From: Betaproteobacteria bacterium
GTDB lineage: Bacteria; Pseudomonadota; Gammaproteobacteria; Burkholderiales; SG8-41
DNA: 36,672 nt
Assembly: GCA_021732605.1 (NCBI GenBank)
Contig: JAKFUS010000030.1
Span: 1-36,672, forward strand
Direction: 5' to 3'
The translations under genes were made by a program, and so were the position numbers. This document shows, one piece after another, positions 11,138 to 11,879 of this stretch. A model generated the notes under the pieces. That model saw nothing but the letters and a program-made list of their open reading frames with translations. It did not search any database and was not told where the DNA came from. Position 1 is the stretch's first letter; each line of letters begins with the position of its first letter.

Positions 11138-11623
11138 ATGAATAGAAAAGCGGTGTATCCCGGAACCTTTGATCCGATGACACTCGGTCATGAAGACCTC
11201 GTGCGCCGCGCCGCCGGGCTGTTTGATCATGTGGTGCTGGCGGTGGCTGACAGCAAAACCAAGCGGCCCTTGTTCACGCTGGCGGAACGCATCGACATGG
11301 CGCGGGAAGCGCTGAGCGATGTCAAAAACGTCACCATCGAAGGTTTTTCCGGGCTGCTGATGCAGTTCGTGCGTGAACATGACGCACGCGTCGTGCTGCG
11401 AGGCGTGCGCGCCGTGTCCGACTTTGATTACGAATTCCAGCTCGCGGGCATGAACCGCAAAATGCATCCCGAGGTCGAGACCGTGTTCATGACGCCGGGC
11501 GAGGAATACATGTTCCTGTCGGCGACGCTGGTGCGCGAGATTTCGGTGATGGGCGGTGACGTGTCCAAGTTCGTGTCGCCGGTGATCGCGGGTCGCCTCA
11601 AGGCCAAGATTAAGAGCGCCTAA
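11138..11623 (+). CDS. coaD: Phosphopantetheine adenylyltransferase
   Basis: CoaD transfers AMP to 4'-phosphopantetheine in the penultimate step of coenzyme A synthesis. The 161-residue protein has the nucleotidyltransferase motif [10 protein letters not shown] (T/H-x-G-H), [21 protein letters not shown] for substrate binding, and the C-terminal LSATLVREI (normally ISSTLVREI; a conservative variant). AAGGATG precedes the start. The last codons, AGC GCC TAA, lie inside the left arm of a 267-bp palindromic element, so the native C-terminus may have been replaced or trimmed by that element. Confidence 0.96.
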
Positions 11624-11879
11624 CAGCATGAAACACGTGTGCGTTACAACGAAAATCAGTGATGACGCGAAGGACGGTGCGGGCCTTATTGCGGATAAGG
11701 CCAAGCCGTCCGACAAAGTCAGCGCTGATTTTCGCTGTAACCCTTCGGGCTGGCACGAGTTTTTGCTCAGGGCGGCGTCCCCCGCCTTGCGCCTATTCGC
11801 GATAGGCGCTGCGGCGCGCTCCTTGCCCTGTGCAAAAATCGTGACAGCGCATCGCGCGTTTCATGCTGTTAGGCGCTCT
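11613..11879. repeat. Highly folded 267-bp palindromic element with 22-bp perfect terminal inverted repeats
   Basis: The ends 11613-11634 and 11858-11879 are exact reverse complements (core GCCTAAC...GTTAGGC), and the pairing continues imperfectly inward. Inside are two large stems. Domain A: 11643-11659 with 11725-11741 (16 of 17 pair), enclosing GGACGG/CCGTCC (11672-11677/11706-11711) and GGCCTTAT/ATAAGGCC (11682-11689/11695-11702). Domain B: 11752-11773 with 11825-11845, capped by GCGCCTAT/ATAGGCGC (11789-11796/11802-11809). A CCCTTCGGG mini-hairpin joins them. The left end includes the coaD stop codon. A 90-codon open frame crosses it (11628-11900) but has no recognisable domain and is not called a gene. 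The ends resemble integron attC R boxes, but the element is far longer than usual attC sites. Confidence 0.85.

Follow-up and report, generated by a model that had tools for sequence, protein, structure and literature searches.

The window analysed here, a stretch of 36,672 nucleotides from Betaproteobacteria bacterium (GCA_021732605.1, contig JAKFUS010000030.1), carries a long palindromic segment between coaD and a ferredoxin-like frame. What this segment is, how it came to lie at the end of coaD, and why its pairing is kept are the questions that the locus raises. The answers differ in firmness: its identity as an IS5-type MITE is, in our judgement, well established, whereas the reason for which it retains its fold is much less certain.

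The coaD insertion and the fold of the element

The coaD site is empty in all 16 of the aligned same-genus loci, where the reading runs through without the element; the alignment comprises 16 of the 19 same-genus coaD loci (L211, L218 and L219 were left out), and a twentieth congener, G016, gave no coaD match. In most of these relatives coaD ends in KIKDLGGK-stop, as opposed to KIKSA-stop in the window. The comparison thus points to a clean insertion in coaD rather than to gradual divergence, and it places the insertion point at the sixth codon before the original stop, not at the old stop codon itself as the preliminary description had it. The same description had named the left arm as the source of the present stop codon, and the new stop does lie in the left terminal repeat. 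In the sequence of events that we propose, the element would have entered coaD at this sixth codon, with its terminal repeat giving the new in-frame stop; as a consequence, CoaD only swaps DLGGK for SA, a change that is presumably tolerated. The features of the locus are collected in Table 1.

Table 1. Features of the coaD locus, in window coordinates
Feature	Positions	Strand	Remarks
coaD, 161 aa	11138..11623	+	Last residues SA and stop codon supplied by the element
Target duplication, left copy TAA	11611..11613	.	From the empty coaD site and the duplication count
MITE core, GAG...CTC, 265 bp	11614..11878	.	Limits from the TTA/TAA duplication and the empty coaD site
Left terminal inverted repeat GAGCGCCTAACAGCATGAAAC	11614..11634	+	Contains the new coaD stop codon, 11621-11623
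First arm, long stem with apical hairpin	11643..11741		Repeat arms 11643-11666 / 11718-11741; from the fold and repeat finding
Second arm, long stem with apical hairpin	11748..11850		Approximate limits; from the fold of both strands
Right terminal inverted repeat	11858..11878	-	Perfect complement of the left repeat
Target duplication, right copy TCA	11879..11881	.	One mismatch to TAA
Remnant of the original coaD 3' end, GGATCTCGGGGGAAAATGA	11882..11900	+	Severed by the insertion; from the empty-site alignment

The terminal arms, AGAGCGCCTAACAGCATGAAAC and GTTTCATGCTGTTAGGCGCTCT, are exact reverse complements over 22 bases, as first described, and repeat finding extends them to 25 nt at 96% complementarity; the outer 21 bases of the window element pair perfectly. 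There is no transposase gene within the 265 bp. Its sole long frame, of 90 aa, was considered as a small protein and rejected, since one-base indels shift the frame in some copies of the alignment, as judged by eye.

Folding of 11593-11899 gave -176.4 kcal/mol for the plus strand, against a shuffled mean of -111.4 (z -10.5), and -174.5 kcal/mol for the minus strand (z -12.1), with none of 100 shuffles folding as well in either case. The plus-strand fold bears out the architecture read from the sequence at the outset: the two ends pair into a basal stem, which carries two long arms, each capped by an apical hairpin, with a mini-hairpin between them. On either strand nearly the whole element is base-paired. 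The idea that the second arm is an inverted copy of the first found mixed support, and we make no such claim: among 11 elements sampled from 44, the likeness of the two arms exceeded the mean of 20 shuffles in 10 and their maximum in 9, and the value of the window element (39.5) lies under the maximum of 60 shuffles (41.5). A structured RNA had also been listed among the candidates, and a search of 11593-11899 with the Rfam covariance models gave no family match at E up to 1. At gathering scores, the only Rfam match of the window is a tRNA gene at 20569-20642.

Dispersed copies, their target sites and a probable IS5-family partner

The repeated copies sought in relatives were found. A second full-length copy, 88% identical, lies in the window assembly itself (contig C24), and 18 of 61 genomes (the window's own, its congeners, its family and its order) contain matches; 17 of these 18 belong to the same family, and the eighteenth shows a 38-base end match. 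An exact scan of a species-representative genome collection for one end returned 81 stretches, and among the 80 listed most titles are betaproteobacterial or Burkholderiales metagenome assemblies, with single titles naming Rhodocyclales, Planctomycetota, Bacteroidia, Proteobacteria and bacterium. Matches under other group names include L155 (Planctomycetota), L196 (Bacteroidia) and L157 (Rhodocyclales); the copies in L155 and L157 are 96% identical, which indicates mis-binned contigs or recent transfer. No copies were found in the plasmid, phage and viral-contig collections, one of these searches being by the exact pattern of one end only.

Paired ends delimit 88 copies of 46-548 bp, once three loci that were shifted views of copies already counted had been excluded; some of the copies so delimited, such as L066, are probably mis-cut. 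The largest class, to which the window element belongs, comprises 57 copies of 257-305 bp, and the others measure 46-51 bp (8 copies), 76-114 bp (4), 142-145 bp (5, with another interior), 237-238 bp (2) and 374-548 bp (12). In the alignment, the 293-bp copies owe their additional length to sequence between the two arms. Left ends come in 52 different versions among the 88 copies; nevertheless, 41 copies have no difference between their two ends over the outer 21 bases, and 26 more have a single one. A second MITE type with like ends, about 142-145 bp long and with CCCTCTCCC...GGGAGAGGG repeats in its interior, occurs at L082:1551-1695 (G000:C17) and at about 110-185 of L257 (G000:C55), and also in G005 and G017. 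At the gene junction TTTTAATGACC, elements of unlike size and orientation are present in two congeners (L007:1502-1767 in G001 and L014:1502-1794 in G017), as either independent insertions into one hot spot or the replacement of one element by another.

Insertion is accompanied by a short target duplication. Among the 79 copies with standard ends (the other 9 do not have GAG/CTC), the 3-bp duplication is exact in 40, always TTA or TAA, differs at one position in 24 more and at two or three in 15; over all 88 copies there are 46 exact duplications, whereas shuffling the right flanks yields 22 on average and 34 at most. The junctions accordingly read TAA/GAG and CTC/TAA, and 45 copies set in a common orientation show a tendency towards RYTTAR at the target. 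An alternative interpretation, a TA duplication plus an extra base, was replaced after the duplication count. A second empty site is that of the G019 copy in L024, the corresponding site being uninterrupted in G001, and because the duplication count and the two empty sites agree, the core is taken as 11614-11878. The 267 bp originally delimited therefore stand except for their outermost A (11613) and T (11879), which belong to the target duplication. Some IS5 subgroups duplicate 3 bp, TNA.

The gene context could be read for 83 copies (5 of the 88 are too near a locus end): the flanking genes run in the same direction in 50, diverge in 12 and converge in 4, and in 17 a called gene is missing on one or both sides. 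In 23 of the 83 the junction coincides with a host stop codon, and in 8 the stop falls within the terminal repeat. Compared with YTTA/TAAR sites in the flanks (46 at stops and 552 intergenic, with 605 coding sites excluded), the odds ratio for a stop at the junction is 5.3 (23 versus 52 copies, 8 omitted), and against a looser YTAR control (65 and 362, with 170 coding sites excluded) the excess is about two-fold; its size is rough, as gene calling relied on a home-made codon score and the copies share ancestry. Where TAA is duplicated a stop is retained, and where the target is TTA, TAG arises with the G that begins the element. Selection against harmful insertions would leave copies with a stop at the junction.

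The ends of the element lead to a full-length insertion sequence. The 902-bp element at L104:672-1573 (G030), from the same bacterial family as the window genome, has GAGCGCCTAACAAAATGA at both ends, and 16 of the 18 outer positions are equal between this sequence and the window end GAGCGCCTAACAGCATGA. It is flanked by TAA and, at the opposite end, by TTA. Of its two overlapping frames, which have Pfam matches to DUF4096 and DDE_Tnp_1, the second exceeds the NCBIfam cut-off for NF033580 IS5_3 (133.2 versus 110 bits) and the first lies just under it (106.9 versus 110 bits). It was reached through GAGCGCCTAACAAAATGA-type ends at contig ends of the congener G005, where seven fragments match one end of the 902-bp element and six others resemble the opposite end, as judged by eye; those on contigs of known length are all terminal on their contigs, which is what the collapse of a multi-copy element in assembly would produce. 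Inspection of the large frames next to solitary ends revealed no autonomous element, and the window genome (assembly 96.5% complete) gave no match to the L104-type transposase. A related IS5-type element of 932 bp with variant ends, GAGCGCATTTCAAAATGA, lies at L231:148-1079 (G028).

All together, the dispersed copies, the clean empty sites, the target duplication and the IS5-family element with the same ends uphold the MITE among the candidates first proposed. A palindrome moved by a single-strand transposase is not supported, since the autonomous element with these ends codes for a DDE enzyme. The folded 265-bp element at the end of coaD is thus very probably a MITE whose ends are read by the IS5-family DDE transposase of a full-length insertion sequence. 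In the mechanism that we envisage, this transposase, supplied by the full-length element, would cut at the GAG/CTC ends and join them to a 3-bp TTA/TAA target, preferably within RYTTAR, the 3 bp being duplicated on joining. Judged from sequence comparison, the element would be mobile and an IS5-family transposase would be the mover of the window copy.

Conservation of the pairing and what may keep it

The pairing was followed across 44 of the 88 copies, namely those of 257-305 bp with clear orientation (13 of the 57 in this range lacked one), and over 98 pairs predicted on both strands, a choice made to avoid favouring one of them. Watson-Crick pairs fill 91% of the cells, against 23-29% when the partners are slid by 1 to 3 columns, a comparison in which the structure, derived from the same sequences, is favoured over its slid versions. 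The compensating differences noticed in the window alone recur between copies, as more than one Watson-Crick type occurs at 57 of the 98 pairs (42 if each type is to be present in at least two copies). Mean conservation is 0.84 in paired and 0.70 in unpaired columns, and 15 of 71 unpaired columns are conserved at 90% or more. Between 19 close pairs of copies we counted 37 double and 113 one-sided changes, which indicates that pairing is restored with some delay rather than immediately. The selection for a single-stranded fold suggested from the window sequence may lie behind the conserved pairing, acting on a folded molecule that could be DNA or RNA.

The counts of G.U and A.C cells offer a hint in this regard. 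On the element strand, G.U occupies 118 cells and A.C 65, and after collapsing relatives the ratio is 109:57 in 35 groups, 87:51 in 18, 75:49 in 9 and 60:41 in 6, that is, an excess of 1.5-1.9 fold. Pairs predicted on one strand only (82 G.U on one strand, 89 A.C on the other) were omitted from this count because they favour their own strand. The excess is a weak hint of selection on one strand, which inheritance from a few master copies could mimic.

Three explanations have to be weighed. It is possible, though short of probable, that the pairing of this MITE is a by-product of template switching between the palindrome arms during replication, arising without any selection on the fold. The high pairing on both strands, the identity of the terminal arms in so many copies despite their diverse left ends, and the preponderance of one-sided over double changes are all consistent with such a process; being strand-neutral, however, it predicts equal numbers of G.U and A.C, rather than the 118:65 observed overall or the 75:49 in 9 groups, an argument tempered by the shared ancestry of the copies.

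Selection on the host transcript, by which the arms of the MITE would serve the processing, stabilisation or attenuation of the neighbouring mRNA, is a rather doubtful explanation. It would accord with the conserved pairing and with the frequent location between co-directional genes, and passages of PMC2229807 report effects of ERIC on mRNA stability. Orientation to host transcription is, however, mixed (16 sense and 11 antisense, with 17 unknown), and the G.U:A.C ratio is alike in the first two classes (42:24 and 34:19; 42:22 where orientation is unknown), so that the bias follows the element strand and not the host mRNA.

That the element is instead an unusually long attC-like site or gene cassette, placed by an integron integrase at a secondary site, is very hard to sustain, as its junctions lie outside the boxes rather than at the G/TTRRRY joint, its terminal stem has no unpaired spacer, and the same ends bound a DDE insertion sequence. 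Integron attC sites have an unpaired central spacer and extrahelical bases between the R and L boxes. The resemblance that prompted this candidate is real in the window, where GCCTAAC and GTTAGGC fit the R-box consensus RYYYAAC/GTTRRRY and the strand folds, as it does in attC sites; yet the box differs between copies, and the resemblance is probably due to chance. The window genome does give eight matches to integron integrases, two of them over the cut-off and one of these two with a stop, all on contigs other than that of the window element; the weak matches may be other recombinases, as all 14 control genomes also match below the cut-off. The integrase genes or fragments are found at G000:C20:21764-22705 and G000:C2:2217-3143 and on contigs C46 and C64 (loci L269-L272). 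Four stretches around integrase matches were put through a simple scan, and three of them contain attC-like sites of 58-94 bp, unlike the element. The scan gave none around the window element, a result that carries no weight, as it stops near 150 bp and the element measures 265 bp.

Returning to the IS5-type MITE, we propose that its arms would most likely be kept by selection on the element's own folded single strand, be it a DNA intermediate or its own RNA, with template-switch correction between the palindrome arms perhaps helping to keep the pairing. We hold this explanation with much less certainty than the identity of the element, and the stronger statement, that the two-armed fold is a working part selected on the element's strand (single-stranded DNA or own RNA) and not on a host transcript, is an unlikely one on present evidence.

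Relation to known elements and implications

The element shares with IS5-family MITEs the ends common with the 902-bp IS5-family element, the short TTA/TAA duplication, the lack of a transposase gene and the dispersed copies of several sizes; it differs in being palindromic over nearly its whole length, its basal stem bearing two arms and its pairs showing conserved covariation. IS5 subgroups are named in sections of PMC3196728 and PMC12730594. Other bacterial MITEs, namely ERIC, Correia-NEMIS and RUP, are described in parts of PMC2229807 as elements of about 100-200 bp with 5'-TA-3' termini, the ends of RUP matching those of an insertion sequence, IS630-Spn1. Like the present element they are small, palindromic and non-autonomous, and their transcripts form long stem-loops; according to the same parts of that source, however, their stem is made by the two ends, whereas here there are 265 bp, two additional arms and IS5-type GAG...CTC ends. 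Stable stem-loops in MITE transcripts are also mentioned in a portion of PMC10969869, and an extract of PMC2759123 describes a repeat unit fused to the end of a gene.

A likeness in shape is also seen with the CIR elements of Caulobacter and relatives, which in the account excerpted from PMC2229807 measure about 110 bp, contain GANTC, consist of two long arms joined by a linker and are conserved across species. They are listed there without terminal repeats, in contrast to the present element, which has terminal repeats and a 3-bp target duplication and thereby combines CIR-like arms with the end-formed stem of other MITEs. No description of this family was found in the literature searched, most subscription journals being outside its reach; within that literature, it is an undescribed IS5-type MITE family with an unusually complete, conserved two-armed fold.

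For the genome at hand, the analysis corrects a tempting misreading as attC in a bacterium that does have integron integrases. More generally, uncultured Betaproteobacteria harbour an IS5-type MITE family in which nearly every base of 265 bp is paired, much of this pairing being preserved by way of double changes, and which shows a gene-sparing habit of insertion: the TAA/TTA duplicate or the element's first G leaves a stop, and the terminal repeat has a further one. The family also raises a testable question: does selection on the folded strand preserve long MITE palindromes, or does template switching between their arms do so? If the two-armed fold were a working part of the element, a DDE-type MITE would carry a module recognised by its folded shape.
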